Origin: Bryobacteraceae bacterium
GTDB taxonomy: Bacteria > Acidobacteriota > Terriglobia > Bryobacterales > Bryobacteraceae
DNA: 51,588 nucleotides
NCBI GenBank assembly: GCA_025980435.1
Contig: JAICXK010000005.1
Location: forward strand, 1 to 51,588
Reading direction: 5' to 3'
Shown here: piece by piece, positions 1-29,497 of the stretch
Layout of the letters: every line of letters starts with the position of its first letter
How positions within the stretch are numbered: the stretch's first letter is position 1
Notes under the pieces: model-generated
The model's database searches: none
Told to the model about the DNA's origin: nothing
What the model saw: only the letters and a program-made list of their open reading frames with translations
Program-made: the position numbers and the translations under genes

Positions 1-801
1 AACGGCCTGAAGCTTACGAACCTTCGCAGGCAGCGGGGCGTGGCAACCGGTCTCGACGTCCACCAGGCCGAGCAGCTTCTTTACACCGCAACCGCGCAGA
101 TCGCCGCAACAGAGCGGGCTATCGCGGAGACGGAAAACGCTTTGAATGTTCTGCTTGGCCAGAACCCCGGCGATGTCCCCCGCGGTAAACCGCTGGTCGA
201 TTTGGTCGGGCCTCCTGCCGTTCCTGCCGGTCTGCCTTCGGATCTTCTGGAACGCCGTCCGGATATCCGTCAAGCGGAGCAAATCCTGATCGCGCAAAAC
301 GCGCAAATCGGTGCGGCCAAGGCGCTGTTCTTCCCGCAGATCTCTCTCACGGGACTGCTGGGCGTGCAGAGCCGGGCCCTAGGTGATCTGTTTAGCGGGC
401 CGGCGCGCAACGAAAGCATCGCGCCTGCCGGCGTCTTGCCGGTATTCAATGCCGGCCAGCTTCGCAACAATCTTCGCCTGACGCACGCGCAGCAGCGCGA
501 AGCGCTCGCCAATTACAGGAAGACCATCCAGACCGCCTTCGGAGAGGTTTCCGACGCCCTGACCGATTACGAAAAGAATCGGGAGCAGCGATCGCAGGAG
601 GAGCTTCTGGTCAAGGCTCTTCAGGATACCGACCGGCTTTCGACACTGCGCTACAAAGGCGGACTGGACAGCTATCTGCAGGTGCTGGATGCCGAACGGA
701 ACACGTTTTCGGGCGAGTTGACTCTCGCTCAGCTCCGCAAAGACGAACTGCTTTCGATCGTGCAACTTTATCGCGCGTTGGGCGGCGGCTGGCAGAGATA
801 A
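1..801 (+). CDS. Outer-membrane efflux protein, TolC/NodT family (5' end cut off by window)
   Basis: The frame is open from base 1, so the gene begins upstream of the window; only the last 266 residues are present. The visible part has the alternating helical and strand character of the outer membrane factor family. It includes the segment LPSDLLERRPDIRQAEQ (around bases 235-285), a hallmark of NodT-type lipoproteins, a repeat-like barrel strand region (QISLTGLLGVQS), and a C-terminal coiled-coil helix ending in LDAERNTFSGELTLAQLRKDELLSIVQLYRALGGGW. Such proteins form the trimeric channel-tunnel of RND or ABC tripartite efflux pumps. The inner-membrane and adaptor partners would be expected upstream, outside the window. 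The stop is followed by 174 non-coding bases before the kinase gene, so it probably ends its own operon. The family is clear; the substrate is unknown. Confidence 0.93.
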   Translation, partial: NGLKLTNLRRQRGVATGLDVHQAEQLLYTATAQIAATERAIAETENALNVLLGQNPGDVPRGKPLVDLVGPPAVPAGLPSDLLERRPDIRQAEQILIAQNAQIGAAKALFFPQISLTGLLGVQSRALGDLFSGPARNESIAPAGVLPVFNAGQLRNNLRLTHAQQREALANYRKTIQTAFGEVSDALTDYEKNREQRSQEELLVKALQDTDRLSTLRYKGGLDSYLQVLDAERNTFSGELTLAQLRKDELLSIVQLYRALGGGWQR

Positions 802-975: not shown

Positions 976-3900
976 TTGAATAAGTTGAAAGACACACTGC
1001 CCCTGGGACTTGTCATCCAGCCTGCGTTCTGTTGGGTAGCACTGTTAGCTATTTCTCTCTCGGCCTTGTTTTCCCCGGCGCTCGCTTTTCCCGCGCGCTC
1101 ACCGAAGCCAGCCCACGTCGCCCGCGTAATCGGGATGCCGGAGGTCAAAAGCTATTCGTTCCGCGATTACAATGGCGGCGGACAGATCTGGACGATTGTT
1201 CAGGACCGCCGCGGGATCTTGTATTTCGGCGAGTCGAGCTCGGCATTGCTCGAGTTCGACGGCGCCGGCTGGCGGAAGATCTTTCTGCCTTCTAGCGTGG
1301 TGCGGTCGCTTGCTGTCGATGATAGCGGCCGGGTTTGGGTAGGAGCGAGCGGGAACTTTGGCTATCTTGCAGCAGATGCGAACGGCACGCGGAGGTACAT
1401 CTCGCTCCTTCAAGAGCTTCCCGCGCGGGATCGCGGCTTCACGGATGTTTGGCAGACTCTGGTAACCCCGCAAGGTACTTTCTTTCGCAGCTACGAGCGG
1501 CTGTTTCGCTGGGATGGCAAGCGCATGCAGGTGTGGTCGCCGCAAGCAGCAAAATCAAGGTTCCAGGCGCTTTCCTATGTCCACGGTCGCGTTTACACTG
1601 CTCAAGACGGAATCGGTCTTCAGGAGATTGTGGGTGATGAGCTTCGCGACGCGCCGGGAGGCGAAAGTTATCGCTCCTCCGCGAAACTATTTCTGCATCC
1701 CTTCGATCAAAGCCACATTCTGGTTTCGTCCCGCAATCAACTGTTCACTCTGTATGACGGCCAAAAAGTCACCCCATTTGTAACCCAGGCCGACGGGTAT
1801 TTCCAAAAACACAAGCTTTATACGTCCACTGTGCTTCGTGACGGGACCATCTGCGCTACCACATTGAGCGGTGGCGCTGTACTTATCGAGCACGACGGCA
1901 AAGTTCGCCAGATCATTGACACCAGCGACGGGATCCTGAGCTCCGATGTTCTCTCCGCCTATCAGGATCGGGAAGGCGCGCTCTGGCTCGGCATGGACAC
2001 CGGTATCGATCGCTTGGAAGTGAACTCCCCCGTTTCCATCTTCGCGCGCGATGCCACCTTGGATGTGGCGGAGTTTAACGGCTATCTCTACCGTTCTACG
2101 GCCGCGGGGCGCAGCGGTGTAGCGCGCATTATTCCCGATCCGCAAACCGGCCGTCCTACCGATTTGCCGCTCCGCGGTCCCACCCAGGCATGGACATTGC
2201 TCGCTTTCAAGGACCCCGCCGGCAAGGTACCCGACCAATTGCTCGCGGCCACGAGCGAAGGCGTGATGAGGCTGCAGGGTGATGCGCTTGTTCCTGCTAT
2301 GCCCGCCATACACGGCTTTACTGAGCAGACGTACGACATAAGCGCTTCCAAAAAGAACCCAGCGCGTGTCTTCATCGGTCATTCCGACGGCGTCGGTTCG
2401 ATGCGCTGGAATGGACACTCATGGATCGATGAAGGCAGGCTCCCCAACCTTGTTTATGGCGCCCGGGGCGTGGTTGAGGACGCGAAAGGAACTCTCTGGG
2501 CGAGCGGCGGGGACAACCAAATTATTCGTATCGATGTGGCTCCGACGGGCATGCGAGACTCCAAAGCCGAGCCGCTCGGCGCAAAAGAGGGGCTCCCCGA
2601 TGGTCCAGCCTTTGCGAACTTCGTAGCCGGTAGCATTATCGCAACCGTCGACCGTGTAAACCGGGAATTCCGTTGGGACGATGCGGCTCATAAGTTCGTC
2701 GTCGATAACCGCTTTTTGCTGCCGGTCGATGCGCCCGACGTTACCTATGGTCTGTATGGAGACGGTAACAGTAAAGTGTGGTCCGGCTCTTTTTCGTCGG
2801 GGGTCCGGCGTCAGGGCCTGTTTACCCGGCAGCCTGATGGGAGTTGGCATCTGGACGAAGACACTTTCCGCCGCCTGGGCCGCTATCGATTTTTCTCCGT
2901 ACGGCCCCAACCGGATGGCACGGTCTTTTTCTTTGGCGAGAACCTTGTCCGCTTCGACCCTCGCATCAAAGAAGCCGCGCAACGGGAAATCGGGCGGGAG
3001 CAGTTCCCAACGGTGGTGCGCAGGGTCACCGCGGGGTCGCAGGTGATTTTTGGCGGGTACGGAGCGACCGATACTTCTGAAAGACGCCTGCACCCGGGCA
3101 GCAATGCGCTCCAGTTCCAATTTGCCGCGCTCACTTACGGTAATCCGTCCGGCACCGCTTATCAATATTTTCTGGAAGGTTTGGACAAAGACTGGTCTGC
3201 CTGGGGCACGCAAAAAGAGGCCAACTACAGCGGGCTGGGTCCGGGCAGTTATCGTTTCCATGTGCGTTCCCGCGCCGACGACGGCCGCACGGGCGCGGAA
3301 GGGATGTATGCGTTCACGATCCTGCCGCCCTGGTATCGAACTAAGTTCGCTTATTTTCTTTACGTACTTCTCTTTTTGCTGGTGACGTTTGGTTTCTGGC
3401 GGCTCGTCGTCGCTTACGAACGCAAGAAGGCATTTCGCAAAACGCAGGATCTCGAGGCTCAGGCGAAAGCGCTGGAAGCGACTGTCGATGAGCGCACAAG
3501 CGAAATTCGCGCTCAGGCGCGAGAGATTGCCGCGCAAAGGGACAGCATTGAACTGCTGAGCGAGATCGGCCGAGAGATCACCGCTTCGCTCGATCTCAAC
3601 ACCATCTTGTTCAAGCTGTATGAGCGGGTAAACCAGATCGTGGACGCCACCATCTTCGGCGTTGGCCTGTACCGGCCGGAGAAGAAGCTGATCGAATACA
3701 CCCTCGCGATCGAAAACGGCAAACGCTATGCGCCTTACACGCGCAGCACGGAGGATAAGAATCAGTTGGCCGTGTGGTGCATCGACCATCGCCGGCCGAT
3801 CCTGCTGAACGATGTCGATGCTGAGTCCTCAAAGTACATCGCTTCGTACCAACACACCGGGCGCACCTTGGAAGACGGCAGCGTGGCGCAGCCGCCCGCC

Positions 3901-23149: not shown

Positions 23150-23303
23150 GTCCCTCTAGTGTACGTTAAGGCTTCCCGGCCCTACTACGATCAGAATTCT
23201 CTTTATCTTCAGTACCCTCCAGCGACTCAGGACGCCTCTGAAGGCGGCGTTTGGGCTTTTTGCTCCGGTTGCAATTGGATCCGAGGTGGTATACTATCGA
23301 CGT

Positions 23304-23323
23304 TTGTTCTGAAAACAGAACAA
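23304..23323. promoter_or_regulatory. Perfect palindromic operator before the LexA/CI-like regulator gene
   Basis: Arms TTGTTCTG (23304-23311) and CAGAACAA (23316-23323) are perfect inverted repeats around AAAA. A TATACT hexamer (23290-23295), a plausible -10 box, ends 8 bases upstream, so the palindrome would cover the transcription start. The regulator begins at 23374. The natural reading is an autoregulatory operator for the helix-turn-helix protein. A weaker -35 candidate is TTGCAA at 23269 (15-base spacing). Confidence 0.65.
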
Positions 23324-23373
23324 CATGCCGGGACGAGCGCTTTCCCGCCCGTGGCGCGTCCGCGGGAAGGCGC

Positions 23374-24186
23374 ATGCCCCCCACGAAAATGCAGGAAGCC
23401 GGTAAAAAATTAAGGAATGCCCGCGAGCGTCTGCGGTTGAAATACCGCGATGTTGAAGAAGCGAGCCAGCGAATCGCGGCGGCACGCGGCAGCCAGGAAT
23501 TCTGCGTCGGTCTCAGTCGACTGGCAGATATAGAAAACAAGGGGACTATTCCTTCCATTTACCGCCTCTATTCACTCTGCGCAATTTACGGCCTTGACTT
23601 CGAGGCCGTCCTGGCGTCGTACGGCGTTGATCTGGCAAACATGCCGGCAGACGGCTCCAGAATTTCGCTTCCGCAAACGCGTCCGGTGGATTTCCACATT
23701 CCTGAACGCACCTGCATCGATCTTCCTGTCGAGTTCGACTCTATTGCGGAACTCCGGCGCACATCCTATTTGAGCCGTTACCTACATCGCTGGGGAAAGC
23801 TTCCCCTGACGCTGCTAAACTCTGCGGACGTACGGAATCAGCGCTACGGGCTTATCGGCTCTGATGACTGGTCCATGCACCCTCTGATTGCGCCGGGCTC
23901 GCTCATTCAGATCGATGAGGCCAGGCGGCACATCGCCAAAGGGGGCTGGCTGCATGAATTCGAACGCCCTATTTATTTCCTGGAGGACCGCAATGGCTAC
24001 CGTTGCCGTTGGTGTACCGAGAGGGGAGGATTTCTGATTCTTCAGTGCTATCCAAATTCCCAGGTACTGCCGGAAGTTTTCAGGTTTCCCGGAGAGATCG
24101 ACGTAGTAGGGCAGGTAGTCGGCGTTGCTATGCGTTTAGATCTGGTGAGGCGACGCCATACACATTCCTCAGCAGGCCGAGAATAG
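23374..24186 (+). CDS. XRE-type regulator with a LexA/CI-like C-terminal domain lacking the catalytic lysine
   Basis: A 270-residue protein. Residues about 8-85 form an XRE-like helix-turn-helix with KKLRNARERLRLKYRDVEEAS and LADIENKGTIPSIYRLYSLCAIY. Residues about 155-255 look like the S24 peptidase/CI fold: GSDDWSMHPLIAPGSLIQID (Ser167 at the position of the self-cleavage serine) and later GYRCRWCTERGGFLILQCYPNS, where Arg212 appears to stand in place of the usual Lys. If so, it binds DNA and dimerises but cannot cleave itself. I take ATG 23374; the open frame continues upstream over the palindrome, which argues against the longer form. The last 59 bases overlap the opposing gene. No phage genes are nearby. 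Confidence 0.8.
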   Translation: MPPTKMQEAGKKLRNARERLRLKYRDVEEASQRIAAARGSQEFCVGLSRLADIENKGTIPSIYRLYSLCAIYGLDFEAVLASYGVDLANMPADGSRISLPQTRPVDFHIPERTCIDLPVEFDSIAELRRTSYLSRYLHRWGKLPLTLLNSADVRNQRYGLIGSDDWSMHPLIAPGSLIQIDEARRHIAKGGWLHEFERPIYFLEDRNGYRCRWCTERGGFLILQCYPNSQVLPEVFRFPGEIDVVGQVVGVAMRLDLVRRRHTHSSAGRE

Positions 24187-24589
24187 CTTCGAAGTCTGAG
24201 ATGTGTTTTTCCCGTTCAGGACCGCGGATGGAAGCAGGTACCAAGTTCTTATAAGGCGTAAGCCGCAGCCACGCATCTAGTAATTCGGTTCTGTCTACTT
24301 GGTCAATTCCCGATATATACAGCTCAATATCGGCTTTCTTGCGTTCTAGGGGATAGCTTACCCATTCCCGAAAGATGGATTCATGCACCCGCTTTAGAGC
24401 GCGGCTCGCCACGAGAACGCCCGAGTATGCCTGGTTAAATCCATAGTGCTCATACCGTCCGGTATCGGGATTGCGCAAACCCGCCAGGTAAACAAGCCTG
24501 CCATAGGAGCTCTCAATGAGGGATAAATCTCTGACCCAGAGTGTTTCTGAGGTCTCGTGCTCGTCAATGGCCGCCTTGTCCCGCAGCAT
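24128..24589 (-). CDS. Protein of unknown function, tail-to-tail overlapping the regulator gene
   Basis: A 153-residue predicted cytoplasmic protein that I do not recognise. It is rich in charged residues and aromatics (SLIESSYGRLVYLAGLRNPDTGRYEHYG, VHESIFREWVSYPLERKKADIELYI) and has no membrane helix or signal peptide. It ends inside the regulator gene (59-base overlap) and is transcribed towards it. Upstream on its own strand, TTGAAT and TATCAT are spaced 16 bases apart, a decent promoter, with the 10-mer ATACCCGTAA lying in the spacer (24621-24630 on the plus strand). The same 10-mer occurs at two other promoters in the region, so it may be co-regulated with them. Confidence 0.75.
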   Translation of the reverse strand: MLRDKAAIDEHETSETLWVRDLSLIESSYGRLVYLAGLRNPDTGRYEHYGFNQAYSGVLVASRALKRVHESIFREWVSYPLERKKADIELYISGIDQVDRTELLDAWLRLTPYKNLVPASIRGPEREKHISDFEAILGLLRNVYGVASPDLNA

Positions 24590-24620
24590 TTAACTTCGTA
24601 ATTTCAATGATACACGGATA

Positions 24621-24630
24621 TTACGGGTAT
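24621..24630 (-). promoter_or_regulatory. TTACGGGTAT box, copy 1 (promoter of the 153-residue protein)
   Basis: The plus strand reads TTACGGGTAT; on the gene's strand it is ATACCCGTAA, 32-41 bases before the start codon. It sits between a -35 (TTGAAT) and a -10 (TATCAT), a position where a bound repressor would block RNA polymerase. Two further exact copies lie at 24722 and 29488. Confidence 0.5.
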
Positions 24631-24721
24631 TCAAGTTTGTACAGTACCGGGAGGACTAGACCGTTCCGATACCGGAAAACGTGGTAATTACCCTAGAGTT
24701 CCCTGTTTCCCCACCGCTATC

Positions 24722-24731
24722 TTACGGGTAT
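24722..24731 (+). promoter_or_regulatory. TTACGGGTAT box, copy 2 (promoter of the secreted repeat peptide)
   Basis: An exact copy 45-54 bases before the ATG of the repeat peptide. Its last bases form part of TATAAC (24729-24734), a good -10 box; the -35 is weak. A perfect 10-bp palindrome GGTAATTACC (24683-24692) lies 30 bases further upstream. Confidence 0.5.
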
Positions 24732-24775
24732 AACGCTCTGCGAAAAACCTCCAGTCTAAACAATCTAATTGATCT

Positions 24776-25108
24776 ATGAAACAAGGAATACTCGGTGCAT
24801 TTCTAGCTATTGCTCTGGTTAGCAGTTTGTCTGCCAAAGCAGGGGACCGGCTCGTTCCCCATCTGGACGACTCACTTACCCGATCGGTTACAGCTTTCAA
24901 CCCGCCGCTTCCGCACCCGGGCAGCCCCTATCCGCCGCTGCTGATCGGCTTCAACCCGCCGCTTCCACACCCGGGCAGCCCCTACCCGCCGCTGCTGATC
25001 GGCTTCAACCCGCCGCTTCCACACCCGGGCAGCCCCTACCCGCCGCTGCTGATCGGCTTCAACCCGCCGCTTCCGCACCCGGGCAGCCCCTACCCGCCGC
25101 TGGGCTAG
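24776..25108 (+). CDS. Small secreted peptide made of tandem 18-residue proline-rich repeats
   Basis: A 110-residue protein. Residues 1-22 are a Sec signal peptide (MKQGILGAFLAIALVSSLSAKA); residues 23-40 form a charged spacer (GDRLVPHLDDSLTRSVTA). From Phe41 to the end it is four copies of FNPPLPHPGSPYPPLLIG, the last cut short to end PPLG. There is no cysteine in the mature part. Half of each repeat is proline, so an extended polyproline-II rod is likely. The ATG directly follows AATTGATCT; no strong ribosome site is visible. I know no named family. It could be a structural cell-surface peptide, a decoy or ligand, or a multi-core precursor cut at LLIG/F junctions. The neighbours are a regulator, an unknown gene and a seven-helix membrane protein. 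Confidence 0.78.
   Translation: MKQGILGAFLAIALVSSLSAKAGDRLVPHLDDSLTRSVTAFNPPLPHPGSPYPPLLIGFNPPLPHPGSPYPPLLIGFNPPLPHPGSPYPPLLIGFNPPLPHPGSPYPPLG
24896..25102 (+). repeat. Tandem 54-bp direct repeats (3.8 copies) inside the secreted peptide gene
   Basis: Units are at 24896-24949, 24950-25003, 25004-25057 and a partial one at 25058-25102. Units 2 and 3 are identical over all 54 bases; unit 1 differs from them at two silent positions, and unit 4 at one silent position over its length. Perfect in-frame periodicity and the near absence of drift point to recent duplication or ongoing gene conversion. There are no spacers, so this is not a CRISPR array. Confidence 0.95.
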
Positions 25109-25240
25109 GGACGCACGAGATGCCCATTATCCTCTCCGGGCAGCGCCCTGGCCAGGTAATCCGGGTGGGGTAGTGTCACTTCCCTGAGGTTGATTGATTC
25201 TGGGTTTTGCTCTAACATCCAAGGAAGCCTGCGATTAAAG

Positions 25241-26062
25241 ATGAATTGGACTCGCGCAGCACAGGAAATTTGCGATGTGCTGAGCGTCTGCCTTGTCCTT
25301 CGTCTGCTATTTCTGCGGTTGCATAGCGTCTACCGGGTGTTCTGCATTTTCCTGATATTCGATCTGCTCTCGTCGTCGGTTGCGTTTTACGAATTTTTCG
25401 CGCACGATGCGCGGCTGGATTACCGGCTCACCTGGATGGCGATGCGCTGCATCGCGTGGATCCTCTCGCTTTGGATGGTCTATTCCTTCGTGTCCGCCGT
25501 ACTCCACTCGGTTCCTGGCATTCTGAAGTTCTCCCGAAAGCTGCTCAATTACCTGATTCCGATCGCCATTGGGTTGGCAATCCTAAGCTTTGCTCCTGAA
25601 TACTCCGCCGCGCGGGTAGCGGCTGCGGAGAGCCCGATCGTCCATGCCCTCGGCATTGCATTCATTGTGGAACGCGTGGTCGCCACCATCGCGGTTCTCG
25701 TGTTTGGTGGAATTCTGGCCTTTGTCCTCTGGTTCCCCGTCCAGATGCCCCGGAACCTGGCCGTGTTCAGCGTGGGCCTGGTGGTTTATTTCGGCGCGGA
25801 AATGGCATTAATGTTGGTCCGCAGCTATTTCTCCCCGGGCAGCCTCGATCTGGTGAGCAACGGGATCAGCTTCGTTTTGAGCGCGTGCTATCTCTACTGG
25901 TTGATCTTCATTCGCGCCGAAGGCGAAACCGTTCCAGTCCGAATGGGACACAGTTGGCGGAAGGAGGAGCAGAAGCGCCTGATCGGGCAGCTGGAGGCCT
26001 TAAATAATGCCTTGCTGAACGTGAATCGCAGGCAGCAACTCGGCTCCACTTCGCATAGCTGA
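25241..26062 (+). CDS. Seven-helix membrane protein of unknown function
   Basis: A 273-residue protein from ATG 25241, with seven likely transmembrane helices (about residues 10-26, 31-50, 64-88, 100-118, 135-160, 170-190 and 205-222). It ends in a charged, probably cytoplasmic helix (SWRKEEQKRLIGQLEALNNALLNVNRRQQ). A longer form starting at TTG 25190 would add 17 residues without hydrophobic character; I prefer 25241 because the first helix then starts normally. I do not recognise a catalytic motif. The layout of seven helices plus a coiled-coil tail resembles acidobacterial membrane proteins of unknown role and could be a sensor module. It follows the secreted repeat peptide on the same strand, 132 bases downstream. 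Confidence 0.75.
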   Translation: MNWTRAAQEICDVLSVCLVLRLLFLRLHSVYRVFCIFLIFDLLSSSVAFYEFFAHDARLDYRLTWMAMRCIAWILSLWMVYSFVSAVLHSVPGILKFSRKLLNYLIPIAIGLAILSFAPEYSAARVAAAESPIVHALGIAFIVERVVATIAVLVFGGILAFVLWFPVQMPRNLAVFSVGLVVYFGAEMALMLVRSYFSPGSLDLVSNGISFVLSACYLYWLIFIRAEGETVPVRMGHSWRKEEQKRLIGQLEALNNALLNVNRRQQLGSTSHS

Positions 26063-26091
26063 AAATACGCCGGTTCGCCTCGGTGCCCAAA

Positions 26092-26142
26092 TTACGGTAG
26101 GGCTTTTTCGGGTTTCCGTAAATAAATCAGCGGTTACCGTAA
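26092..26142. promoter_or_regulatory. Three operator-like TTACSGTAA boxes at exact 21-bp spacing
   Basis: TTACGGTAG (26092-26100), TTTCCGTAA (26113-26121) and TTACCGTAA (26134-26142) begin exactly 21 bases apart, two helical turns, so bound proteins would lie on the same face of the DNA. The third is a perfect TTAC-C-GTAA palindrome; each of the others departs by one base. The array lies just upstream of the gene at 26209 and after the stop of the seven-helix protein. The half-site TTAC/GTAA is shared with the TTACGGGTAT boxes elsewhere in the region. Confidence 0.6.
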
Positions 26143-26208
26143 AAAAAGAAACCTCAGGTCTTGAAATACGCCGGGCATTCCTGTACTGTATACACTACGG
26201 AGACCATC

Positions 26209-26736
26209 TTGCCTACTGCGTTGGTTCTTACTCCACTGCTCCTCGGGGCCCTAGGGCTGGCATTGCTCTTGCCAGTGATTTTGAGGCTGTTTCGAAAGTG
26301 CACCATCGAGGAGATCACTCCGGAGTGGCTGGAAAGCTTTTCCCCTTCCTCTTATTACCCGATGCAGAATTTACTGGCCGAAGAGGATTTCAATTTCCTC
26401 TGGCGTCAACCGGGCTTCGATCTTTCGCTGTATCGCAAGTTAAGGCATGACCGGCTGCGAATCTTCCGGCAATACCTGAATCGGCTGATTCTCGATTTCA
26501 ACCGGTTGCATGTGGCCGCTCGCGCGATTCTGGCTAACTCGCCCGACGACTGCTCCGAACTGGTTTCAAAACTGGTCTGGTTGAAGGTGCGCTTCTCACT
26601 TAGCGTACTGAGAGTTGAGCTAAACTACGCTTGTTGCAAAATCGGTTTCCGCTACGTAGCTGCTGCGGGCTTGATTTCGCGGCTGGAGGAGATGAGCGCG
26701 CAACTCCACTCGATTGCGGCCATTCAGATGGCCTGA
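26209..26736 (+). CDS. Membrane-anchored protein of unknown function
   Basis: A 175-residue protein if translation begins at TTG 26209, which has GGAG at good spacing (26199-26202); a TTG at 26161 would give 191 residues. An N-terminal membrane helix (LVLTPLLLGALGLALLLPVILRLF) is followed by a helical cytoplasmic-looking domain with WLESFSPSSYYPMQNLLAEEDFNFL, LRHDRLRIFRQYLNRLILDFNRLH and a C-terminal amphipathic region. I do not recognise the family. The phased operator array upstream suggests tight control. The next gene is convergent, 17 bases away. Confidence 0.72.
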   Translation: MPTALVLTPLLLGALGLALLLPVILRLFRKCTIEEITPEWLESFSPSSYYPMQNLLAEEDFNFLWRQPGFDLSLYRKLRHDRLRIFRQYLNRLILDFNRLHVAARAILANSPDDCSELVSKLVWLKVRFSLSVLRVELNYACCKIGFRYVAAAGLISRLEEMSAQLHSIAAIQMA

Positions 26737-26753
26737 CGTTTCGCCATCTTATC

Positions 26754-27476
26754 TTACAGCTTTGATTCCACAAAGCTCCTTAGTTCTGCCTTTGCCTTCC
26801 CATACTCTTCGAAATTCTTCTCGGCCGCTTTAAATTCCTTCGTGTGAACGCAGCGGCGCGCGCCCCGATGTTCTGTCGGAAAACGCAAGTGAAGCATCTC
26901 ATGGAACAGAATGTAGTTCACAATCAACTGCGATGCCTTCGGGGAATCGAGCAGGTTACTTAGCACGATTACATTGTGGGAAGGATCGTAGTGTCCCAGC
27001 GTACTGCGCGAGGGGCGCAAACTCCACCCTAGCTGCGGCCGGGCCATGAGGCCATGAAAATATTTGAAATTCAGCTCCTCGAAGAGTTGTGCCAGATCGT
27101 AAAAGCGGCCCCTGGCATCGAGAAAAGCCTTTCGTCCGCGTTCCTGTTTCACAAGGTGCAAGGTTCTGCGAACGTCGGCGCGATTCAGATAGCGCCGGTA
27201 CCGCGCGACAACACCATCGTCGAGGGTTTTTCGAAACAACTTCGAAATCAGGATCAATGCCAGCGCCTCTTGGATCGGGGCGGGCGCTCCTTGGAGCAAA
27301 TCGCTGATATCGACCCGGAGATGACCTGCTTCCAGACGGATACGACTGTTTGCGTTCGCGTACTTCCGAAAGCGCACCGTGATTTCCGGGAGCGGCGTCC
27401 GCGGCTTCAGGGTACGGAAAACGCGCTCATAAATCTGCTCAACCGTCTCAAAGAACAGAGCAGTCTCGACTTGCAT
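26754..27476 (-). CDS. SprT-like zinc metalloprotein
   Basis: A 240-residue protein from ATG 27476; the open frame allows TTG starts up to 27527. The C-terminal half holds a zinc-protease site HEMLH in YILFHEMLHLRFPTEHRGARRCVHTKEFKAAEKNFEEYG, with a third ligand probably in VHTKEF. Upstream are LNFKYFHGLMARPQLGWSLRPSRSTLGHYDPSHNVIVLSNLLD, features of SprT/Spartan-like proteins. Residues before 120 are helical and not assigned. Some relatives handle DNA-protein crosslinks, but many bacterial ones are uncharacterised; the substrate here is unknown. It is divergent from fabH, with about 80 bases between the starts. Confidence 0.82.
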   Translation of the reverse strand: MQVETALFFETVEQIYERVFRTLKPRTPLPEITVRFRKYANANSRIRLEAGHLRVDISDLLQGAPAPIQEALALILISKLFRKTLDDGVVARYRRYLNRADVRRTLHLVKQERGRKAFLDARGRFYDLAQLFEELNFKYFHGLMARPQLGWSLRPSRSTLGHYDPSHNVIVLSNLLDSPKASQLIVNYILFHEMLHLRFPTEHRGARRCVHTKEFKAAEKNFEEYGKAKAELRSFVESKL

Positions 27477-27555
27477 TTCCAACCAACTGTAACATGGTGA
27501 TTCCGGGTCCTTTCCAGGATCCGGCAAGATTCAAATTATGGAGAGGACAGCGTAA

Positions 27556-28545
27556 TTGCCTACCGCCAAGATCAGTGCCCTGGGCTGCTTTGTGCCGCCT
27601 GGAATTCTAACCAACGATGACCTTTCCAAAATGGTGGAGACAAATGATGCCTGGATTGTCGAGCGGACCGGCATCCGGGAGCGTCACATTGCAACCAAAG
27701 AGATAGCCACCTCCGATATGGCCGTCGCCGCCGCTCGCGAGGCGCTCGGCCAAAGGGGTATCGAGGCATCAGAACTCGATGCGATTATCGTGTGCACGGT
27801 CACGCCGGACATGTTGTTTCCTTCCACCGCGTGCCTGGTTCAGAACCGGCTAGGCGCGGTCGGCGCGTGGGGTTTTGATCTGGTCGCGGCCTGCTCGGGG
27901 TTTCTGTACGGCCTGACAACGGGCGCTCACCTGGTATCGGCCGGGACGCACCGAAAAGTGCTGGTAATTGGCGCTGACACAATGTCCCGCATCATCGATT
28001 ACACGGATCGCGGCACTTGCATTCTCTTTGGGGACGGCGCCGGAGCGTTTCTGATTGAGCCTTCCGAGAACCCAGCCGAAGGGTTTATCGGCCATATAAG
28101 CGAAATTGACGGATCGGGAGCTCAGTTTCTGAATATGCCCGCGGGCGGGAGCCGTCTCCCTGCCAGCGCGGAGACCGTCGCCAAGCGGCTGCATTATGTG
28201 AAGCAGGAGGGCCAGCAGGTGTTCAAGTTCGCGGTTCGCAAGATGTATGAGCTATGCGACAACCTGCTAAAAAAACATGGCCTTAAACCGAGCGATGTGA
28301 AGCTGCTGATTCCGCATCAGGCCAACAAACGAATTATTTCAGCGACTGCCGAGCGTCTCGGGCTACCTCCGGAAAAGGTTGTCTTGAATTTGGATAAATA
28401 TGGCAACACAACCGCCGCAACCATTCCCCTTGCGACCCGAGATGCGATTGCGGACGGGCGTTTAAAGAAAGGTGACCTGGTGCTCTTCGCGGCTGTGGGC
28501 GCGGGCTATACGGCGGGAGCTAGTTTGTGGCGCTGGGCCTACTGA
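27556..28545 (+). CDS. fabH: Beta-ketoacyl-ACP synthase III
   Basis: A 329-residue enzyme that condenses acyl-CoA with malonyl-ACP to start fatty acid synthesis. The catalytic triad is visible: Cys113 in AACSGFLYG, His254 in PHQANKRI, Asn284 in YGNTTAA. The N-terminus has [23 protein letters not shown]. The start is a TTG with a strong GAGAGGAC ribosome site 7 bases before it. The gene is monocistronic, and its last 26 bases overlap the end of the opposing transglycosylase gene. Confidence 0.96.
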
Positions 28546-29239
28546 TGCGCTCTCCGGCGCTGGCCTTGGACTCCGGCGTGCGTTGCCGGGAGTACTCGTT
28601 CAGAACTCTGGTCACATATCGACGAGTTTCTTCATAGGGCGGCACGCCTCCGAAGCGGGCCACTGCCCCCGGTCCCGCGTTGTATGCGGCCAGAGCAAGC
28701 GCGGAATCGCCGTGGTAGCGCAGCAGGAGCGACCGCAGGTATTTTGCCCCGCCTTCCGCATTCTCGGCAGCGCACTGGGGGTTCACGCCCAAGCTGGCTG
28801 CTGTTCCGGGCATGAGTTGCATCAGTCCGAGGGCGCCCCGGCGGGAAACGGCATCCGGCCGGAAGCCGGATTCCGCGCGAGCTACGCTTTGCACCAGTTC
28901 TTCGGGTAAACCTTGCGCTTTCGCCGCCGCCTTCAGCAGGTCGCGGGCGGTCGCTGCCGGCGCACTGGAATGGCTTTGGATGCTTTGGGCGTGATCGCCC
29001 GGCATAGTCTGAATCTGAGAGACCGCGCTTGCCGGGAACTCCAGAGTGCCGGAGCCGATGTGTAGGATCAGCACCTGATCGTTCCGAGTATGGGAATCGG
29101 CCTGCATGCAGAAACCGTTCTTCAGGCAGACATTCTCCGCTGCAGAACACAGCGAAATACAGGCTATGAAGAGTCCGCCAGCCTGCAAACAGCGGGTAAG
29201 TATCGAAATGGCGCTAGTACAAACCGGCGATAATCCCAT
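28520..29239 (-). CDS. Lytic transglycosylase (SLT domain), exported
   Basis: A 239-residue protein with a hydrophobic N-terminal export segment (about residues 10-33). A short cysteine-containing linker follows, and then an SLT lysozyme-like domain (about 98-210). The catalytic Glu123 lies in ARAESGF, followed by [18 protein letters not shown] and [12 protein letters not shown], all diagnostic. It cleaves peptidoglycan with 1,6-anhydro product formation, in the periplasm. The start overlaps the 82-residue gene by 26 bases, indicating translational coupling, and its 3' end overlaps fabH. Confidence 0.93.
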
Positions 29240-29462
29240 CCAGATCGGCTTCGCTTATGGGTTCCTTATCTCCCTCTAGCAGCATGAGTTCGTGCTCAAG
29301 CAGCGTTGCTGATACAAGGGTCTTTACCGCAATTTCAGCGATACTGCTGTTTTTACCATAACGCGCTGCAAACAGGTCTGAAACGTCCTGCAGTTGCTTC
29401 CTGATACCAGACAGGTATCTGGCCATGGCAGCGTGTTCTTCCCGGCTTAAGGGATATTGCAC
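29214..29462 (-). CDS. Small protein of unknown function coupled to the transglycosylase
   Basis: An 82-residue, mostly helical cytoplasmic protein (SREEHAAMARYLSGIRKQLQDVSDLFAARYG..., ending [12 protein letters not shown]). The start is GTG 29462, chosen because AAGGAG lies 5 bases upstream; the open frame continues further up but without translation signals. It overlaps the transglycosylase start by 26 bases. Its promoter probably includes GTGACA and CACAAT with the TTACGGGTAT box directly adjacent. No family recognised. Confidence 0.72.
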   Translation of the reverse strand: MQYPLSREEHAAMARYLSGIRKQLQDVSDLFAARYGKNSSIAEIAVKTLVSATLLEHELMLLEGDKEPISEADLDGIIAGLY

Positions 29463-29487
29463 GTGCGCTCCTTGGCAAGTTTTGGGC

Positions 29488-29497
29488 TTACGGGTAT
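29488..29497 (-). promoter_or_regulatory. TTACGGGTAT box, copy 3 (promoter of the 82-residue protein)
   Basis: An exact copy of the 10-mer, 26-35 bases upstream of the GTG start on the minus strand. On that strand it follows directly after CACAAT, a likely -10 box. It shares its near-promoter location with copies 1 and 2, 4.8 kb away. Confidence 0.5.

Follow-up and report, generated by a model that had tools for sequence, protein, structure and literature searches.

What holds together a group of genes of which four belong to protein families lacking a convincing Pfam or NCBIfam match? The question is raised by a locus of a Bryobacteraceae bacterium (assembly GCA_025980435.1, contig JAICXK010000005.1), of which 51,588 nucleotides, referred to here as the window, were analysed. 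The first-pass annotation of positions 23304–29497 had proposed an undescribed system headed by a LexA-like regulator, in which a secreted repeat peptide gene, an 82-aa protein gene and others were joined by shared promoter boxes (TTACGGGTAT and TTACSGTAA). Comparison of related loci shows that five genes are mostly found together in a fixed order, with a palindrome before the regulator gene, a weaker form of this palindrome before the peptide gene, and fixed distances to the −10 elements. The conserved linkage, which includes the secreted repeat peptide, upholds the notion of a regulator-led system; the shared box, the membership of the 82-aa gene and the LexA identity of the regulator do not survive. 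Our reading, offered tentatively and with somewhat less than even confidence, is that the locus may be an autoregulated cassette, producing a short secreted peptide and most likely also responding to it.

Conservation of the five-gene cassette

The conserved order is regulator, a 153-aa protein encoded on the opposite strand, a short Sec-type peptide, a seven-transmembrane-helix protein (7TM) and a 175-aa protein, the last three in the direction of the regulator. The window contains:

23389–24186, plus strand: regulator, with an XRE-type helix-turn-helix (HTH) and a faintly S24-like C-terminal domain with a conserved CxWC (family scans, alignment)
24128–24589, minus strand: 153-aa protein, predicted to be all-helical, convergent with the regulator (structure prediction, locus comparison)
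24776–25108, plus strand: proline-rich secreted peptide precursor, with a Sec-type leader and about four 18-aa repeats (FNPPLPHPGSPYPPLLIG) (hydrophobicity, repeats)
25241–26062, plus strand: 7TM with a C-terminal helix (predicted structure, loop charges)
26209–26736, plus strand: 175-aa protein, with a single hydrophobic (membrane) segment at the N-terminus plus a soluble part (sequence, locus comparison)

Scanning of GTDB genome contigs with an alignment of the regulator identified 178 relatives. The best 80 of the 178 loci were retained, and counts on these describe the closer relatives. The titles of the 80 loci name acidobacterial taxa throughout, except for L123, which is labelled Acidimicrobiia. 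Every one of the 80 has the 153-aa gene adjacent to the regulator on the opposite strand, and the convergent 3' ends overlap in 77, with exactly the same overlap length in 43 (24128–24186 in the window). At least 3,250 nt are available on the peptide, 7TM and 175-aa side of the regulator in 57 loci, among which the 7TM gene is present in 46, the 175-aa gene in 49, the peptide gene in 50 and all three in 44. A regulator match was found in 54 of the 61 genomes of the family that were searched and a 153-aa match in 51, a figure that overstates the stand-alone genes by at least one, as the match in G045 is a fused AAA+-type paralogue. In G001 and G060, where the 153-aa gene is gone, the remaining four genes have kept their order. 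The homologues do occur together, with linkage conserved across the family, and on this point the first-pass annotation is upheld.

Among 25 genomes, the 7TM gene is found in 19 and the 175-aa gene in 19, both being absent from the same six genomes, which also lack the regulator. Regulator and 7TM are both present in 18 of the 25, neither is present in 6, and one has the 7TM without the regulator (Fisher p = 4e-5, a value that ignores common descent). In a phylum-wide sample, the regulator alignment matches 14 of 247 genomes. Full-length regulator matches outside the family come from four genomes in a second family of the class and from two genomes in a family outside the class. Three such distant loci were opened; the 153-aa and 7TM genes are present in all three and the 175-aa gene in one, and a proline-rich secreted peptide was found in each, twice by script and once by eye. 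The grouping of the five genes, which holds by conserved gene order, is well supported by the sequence comparison.

The cassette at L123 is itself acidobacterial and the bin is probably mislabelled. The gene that adjoins the cassette in the window, for a SprT-like metallopeptidase (26757–27500, minus strand), is not counted as a member. Scanning of the window for Rfam families and tRNAs gave no matches.

The operator and its distance from the promoters

A palindrome of the form GTTCyGAnnTCrGAAC is located upstream of the regulator. In 81 loci, all 12 of its fixed positions are matched in 55, at least 11 in 73 and at least 9 in 80; the best match in 405 shuffled regulator regions was 10 of 12. 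In all operator and −10 shuffles, base composition alone was preserved. The sites and promoters of the window are:

23290–23295, plus strand: TATACT, a −10-like hexamer ahead of the regulator operator, the arrangement of the window lineage (by eye)
23306–23321, no strand: putative regulator operator GTTCTGAAAACAGAAC, 11 of 12 consensus positions
24663–24678, plus strand: putative peptide operator variant GTTCCGATACCGGAAA, asymmetric, 10 of 12 positions, between the 153-aa and peptide genes
24718–24723, plus strand: TATCTT, −10 element of the peptide promoter, with the conserved spacing to the operator; overlaps TTACGGGTAT at 24722
26161–26189, plus strand: promoter-like TTGAAA-17-TACTGT before the 175-aa gene (by eye; similar in close relatives)

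The peptide-side site is a weaker, asymmetric form with a GAAAA end (77 sites), which matches the symmetric consensus at 10 or more of the 12 positions in 44 of 80 loci, compared with 4 of 400 shuffles. Both sites are placed at a set distance from a promoter. Among 80 regulator promoters, 56 have a TATAAT-like hexamer 57–61 nt past the start of the operator (shuffle maximum 12). By the strict hexamer count the figure for the peptide promoters is 26 of 77 (shuffle maximum 14); with TAnnnT, positions +53 to +56 account for 64 of the 77 sites, and no other listed 4-nt window, save that at +52, has more than 9. This −10 spacing puts the operator near −60, which is a place typical of activators.

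A genome-wide search for the operator covered 18 genomes, 15 with the regulator and 3 without. The exact sequence GTTCNGANNTCNGAAM is present somewhere in 14 of the 15 regulator-bearing genomes, at the cassette in 11 of them, and in none of the 3 regulator-less genomes. The exact sequence is not found in G000 because its sites match at 11 and 10 of the 12 positions. In G007, G033 and G034 the exact matches are away from the cassette, and several of them are within open reading frames (ORFs). Over the 18 genomes there are 29 forward and 33 reverse matches, and 4 and 8 for the reversed control. That the cassette promoters share an operator sequence is well supported, and the regulator presumably binds to it.

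A second candidate target is a gene for a small basic protein (MDVxKxLAELR...GRPP) with a GRPP-type motif, which we take to be an AT-hook. Among 14 regulator-bearing genomes in which the start of this gene could be placed, nine have two operators upstream of it, 83–86 nt or about eight helical turns apart (with GRGRRRGRPP, at L236, L237, L239, L240, L242, L243, L244, L245 and L252). The weaker site of the pair in G004 matches at only 9 of 12 positions. Twin operators are present at this gene in none of 4 regulator-less genomes (one-sided Fisher p = 0.04). They are missing also from the AT-hook-like gene of the cassette-bearing strain at L094, which seems to be an isolate. Excluded from the count are L238, L255 and L259–L262, where the start was not located, and matches without a locus.

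The regulator is distinct from LexA

The XRE-like HTH of the regulator is the sole part of the cassette that matches a known family. HTH_31 matches 24 of 26 regulators (best E = 2.6e-6), with the window member under the curated cut-off. Towards the C-terminus, Pfam Peptidase_S24 matches 4 of the 26 (best E = 0.004), and comparison of the regulator with the LexA profile was not significant. With the S24 motif placed by eye, 12 of the 26 regulators have Ser at the aligned catalytic position and there is a conserved Lys at none of the positions examined, the Ser-Lys catalytic dyad of LexA and S24 peptidases thus not being conserved among the 26. In 8 of 8 genomes the LexA model matches one other protein per genome, located elsewhere, and not the cassette regulator. 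The identification of the regulator as LexA-like in the first-pass annotation is ruled out by this separate, canonical LexA.

The cysteines of the CxWC motif (residues 206–209), C206 and C209, are each retained in 25 of the 26 regulators. The motif is kept also where the peptide is without cysteine, as is the case in the window. No TPR family matched any of the 26 regulators at E = 1. A marginal match to cytosolic 5'-nucleotidase in a profile search of the PDB (E = 0.009) was judged to be chance.

The secreted peptide

A peptide gene could be assigned to 70 of the 81 loci, in part by eye; the automatic filter had given 56 of 76, and looser lists were used in addition. All 70 precursors were selected for a Sec-type leader, which was called from hydrophobicity and not by a signal-peptide predictor. 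Of the 11 loci with no assigned peptide, four (L084, L096, L113 and L121) extend no further than about 660 nt from the regulator, which is not the case for the other seven; L135, which has a divergent secreted ORF, was scored as having no peptide.

Precursors are 33–45 residues long in 36 of the 70 and exceed 100 residues in 14. The sequence PxPxCxPC is present in 46, and 7, the window's included, have no cysteine after residue 22. Two or more units are contained within one precursor in 24 of the 70, among them that of the window, where the four 18-aa repeats are about 98% alike as DNA. Two to five copies of the peptide gene are present in 10 of 56 loci (by script). In the neighbours of the window lineage, repeats such as PLPDPNSPNPP and PAWPHPGSPNPP vary between species and are nearly identical inside one precursor, as would be expected if every unit has the same job.

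The membrane proteins and the 153-aa domain

The structure of the 7TM is predicted with a pLDDT of 91.8, and its loop charges suggest an N-out, C-in topology. The 7TM profile has no sequence match to solved structures. In family scans, no Pfam family is common to more than 4 of 51 7TM, 5 of 67 153-aa or 1 of 41 175-aa members, and the matches are weak. Those judged to be chance are BPD_transp_1_N in 4 of the 51 7TM members, DUF2678 and SK_channel in one 7TM member each (best E = 5e-4), TscA in 5 of the 67 153-aa members (best E = 0.0085) and two single matches in the 175-aa family. There is no match to a kinase domain among the 51 7TM and 41 175-aa members. A role in defence was also considered and is without support from the PADLOC scan, in which the six window proteins gave one match, at E = 0.051.

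The 153-aa protein has a predicted all-helical structure (pLDDT 89.6), for which there was no PDB match at E <3. Elsewhere its domain is fused to AraC HTH, LuxR GerE, HTH_17 and AAA+ ATPase domains (L274–L279 and L281). These fusions to DNA-binding and ATPase domains indicate a regulatory role, pointing to an undescribed modular regulatory domain.

The previously proposed promoter boxes

The three copies of TTACGGGTAT on which the first-pass annotation relied are indeed present in the window, at exactly 24621, 24722 and 29488, as are all of the ORFs it named. As an element joining the genes, however, the 10-mer fails. It is present in none of the 80 related loci, and in the 5.1-Mb genome it occurs 8 times and the reversed control 5 times, so that there is no excess genome-wide. 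Shuffled windows contain a mean of 0.01 copies, which makes three unexpected, but no longer so when the choice of word is taken into account: 33 different 10-mers have three separated copies inside 6 kb of the window (12–27 in ten order-1 Markov simulations). Two of the copies, those before the 153-aa and 82-aa genes, are opposite in orientation to the gene that follows. The copy at 24722 shares the last two bases of TATCTT, which occupies the conserved −10 position of the peptide promoter. The recurrence of TTACGGGTAT in the window looks accidental.

Three TTAC/GTAA boxes had likewise been described before the 175-aa gene. One is a full TTACSGTAA, at 26134; the other two (about 26092 and 26113) are partial half-sites as judged by eye. 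The window has just one further full match, at 3135. The boxes were not seen in the relatives inspected, in which it is a promoter of the TTGAAA...TACTGT type that recurs (by eye).

The 82-aa gene was the most distant of the proposed members:

29217–29462, minus strand: 82-aa protein gene, with no family match, about 5 kb from the regulator

Its homologue is present in 7 of the 80 related loci, some of which are too short to reach it, and between it and the cassette are unrelated genes (sprT-like, fabH and lytic transglycosylase). Membership of this gene is ruled out on both counts. A regulon defined by TTACGGGTAT and TTACSGTAA, with the 82-aa gene included, has in its favour the three exact copies of TTACGGGTAT in 5 kb; given its absence from the related loci, its genomic frequency and the abundance of such words in the window, this explanation can be regarded as practically eliminated.

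The proposed circuit and its alternatives

In the circuit proposed here, the regulator, by its HTH and an S24-like dimerisation or sensor domain, would bind the palindrome. The peptide would be exported via Sec and cleaved by signal peptidase, with multi-copy precursors yielding several near-identical units. The 7TM, N-out and C-in, would be the membrane partner, either a receptor or a transporter or processing factor, and the membrane-anchored 175-aa protein would relay or scaffold on the cytoplasmic side. The 153-aa protein might tune the regulator, in view of the fusion of its domain elsewhere to DNA-binding and ATPase domains. The output would be the cassette itself and, in many genomes, also the AT-hook-like gene under its two operators. 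A signalling role for the peptide, with the 7TM as its possible receptor, is inferred from sequence.

Several observations weigh against this circuit. In the window lineage, the regulator operator is directly 3' of the −10-like TATACT, a repressor-like placement (by eye) that is unlike most genomes, and the sign of regulation may therefore have changed in this lineage. The 7TM is missing from the available sequence of 11 of the 57 loci, five of which have the peptide but neither the 7TM nor the 175-aa gene (loci with the regulator and 153-aa genes where the 7TM, and often more, was not found are L078, L090, L091, L093, L098, L107, L110, L119, L124, L131 and L148). The converse is seen in G035, which has the 7TM and 175-aa genes without the regulator. 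Fold matches of the 7TM, mostly to rhodopsins and G protein-coupled receptors (GPCRs) at the top, do not reach significance (E = 0.19 or worse, TM-scores <0.5). The twin sites at the AT-hook-like gene are absent in 5 of the 14 regulator-bearing genomes (the window's own, G008, G050, G025 and G007). Variation in the peptide does not track that of the 7TM specifically. In partial Mantel tests on 47 loci, given the regulator, the peptide is correlated with the 7TM at r = 0.11, the 175-aa protein at 0.13 and the 153-aa protein at 0.19, with the 7TM not singled out; peptide against regulator given the 7TM has r = 0.48, which common ancestry alone could yield.

Other explanations account for parts of these data. 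The peptide might inhibit relatives, as in a bacteriocin-like antimicrobial cassette, with the 7TM and 175-aa proteins for immunity or export and the regulator controlling production. A small secreted peptide beside membrane proteins would fit this, as would the tandem peptide gene copies at some loci and the strong divergence of the peptide core and 7TM (mean distances of 0.78 and 0.71, compared with 0.40 for the regulator). The presence of the regulator in most genomes of the family would, however, be unusually wide for a bacteriocin, the window proteins have no match to a bacteriocin or immunity family, and no transporter family was recognised within the cassette, although the 7TM could be one. 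This explanation is considered rather unlikely. Envelope, metal or redox homeostasis, in which the regulator would use its CxWC to sense a ligand in the cytoplasm and the peptide would act in the periplasm as a chelator or redox peptide (CxPC), is similarly doubtful. The near-universal CxWC cysteines and the frequent PxPxCxPC of the peptides are consistent with such a role, but the precursors without cysteine after residue 22 include that of the window, whose regulator retains CxWC, and tandem near-identical short units are not required for it.

The peptides could instead be structural or developmental, as small proline-rich proteins of the cell surface that are merely co-controlled and have no feedback. 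The repeat-type precursors could be such surface proteins, and the covariation test singles out no receptor. With about half of the precursors having a very short remainder past the leader, and with the peptide gene bearing a form of the regulator's own operator, this is thought quite improbable. The same low standing is given to a more elaborate version of the peptide-responsive cassette. This would be an ancient peptide-hormone-like system in a Gram-negative phylum, having a Sec-secreted proline-rich ligand (with multi-unit precursors in several lineages), a seven-helix N-out, C-in receptor, and kinase-free signalling in which the membrane-anchored 175-aa protein and the modular domain of the 153-aa protein lead to an S24-like regulator with CxWC.

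Comparison with known systems

Peptide quorum sensing of the RRNPP type in Bacillota (Rgg/SHP, ComR/ComS, PlcR/PapR) is one known system for comparison (PMC7564271 and PMC12445099). Neither a peptide-based circuit of this kind in the Acidobacteriota nor the present cassette was found in the literature searched, which mostly lay outside the subscription journals. Should the proposed circuit be confirmed, a soil phylum would gain a peptide-based regulatory circuit of which that literature gave no example, with an operator that lends itself to direct testing, and the 153-aa domain, fused as it is to several kinds of DNA-binding domain, would be a new modular regulatory domain.

The cassette regulator resembles the LexA/CI and other S24 regulators in its N-terminal HTH, its faintly S24-like C-terminus and the palindrome upstream of its own gene. 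They differ in that the cassette regulator has Ser in fewer than half of its members and no conserved Lys, exists beside a separate canonical LexA, and has no DNA-repair gene recognised by eye at the operator-bearing places that were opened.

Agr and ComQXPA-type peptide signalling combines a secreted peptide, a multi-helix membrane protein and a regulator, as the cassette does. The Agr and ComX pathways are two-component systems, whereas the cassette membrane proteins have no histidine kinase match and the 7TM has no shared family match. Multi-copy pheromone precursors of the yeast alpha-factor type are similar in that a secreted precursor contains near-identical short repeats and is accompanied by a seven-helix membrane protein, here predicted to be N-out, C-in. 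The cassette is bacterial, however, and its 7TM has no match to solved structures, the GPCR fold matches not being significant.

In the RRNPP systems an XRE-type HTH regulator is linked to the gene of a short secreted peptide, and the cassette is alike in this, with the presumed site of the regulator at the peptide gene. A secreted peptide gene that is linked to the regulator and carries its operator is found here by linkage and by site, and the regulator would presumably bind to that site. The differences are that the cassette belongs to another phylum and that its regulator has a faintly S24-like C-terminus in place of a TPR match. The cassette also has 7TM and 175-aa membrane partners, multi-unit precursors and a convergent 153-aa protein.

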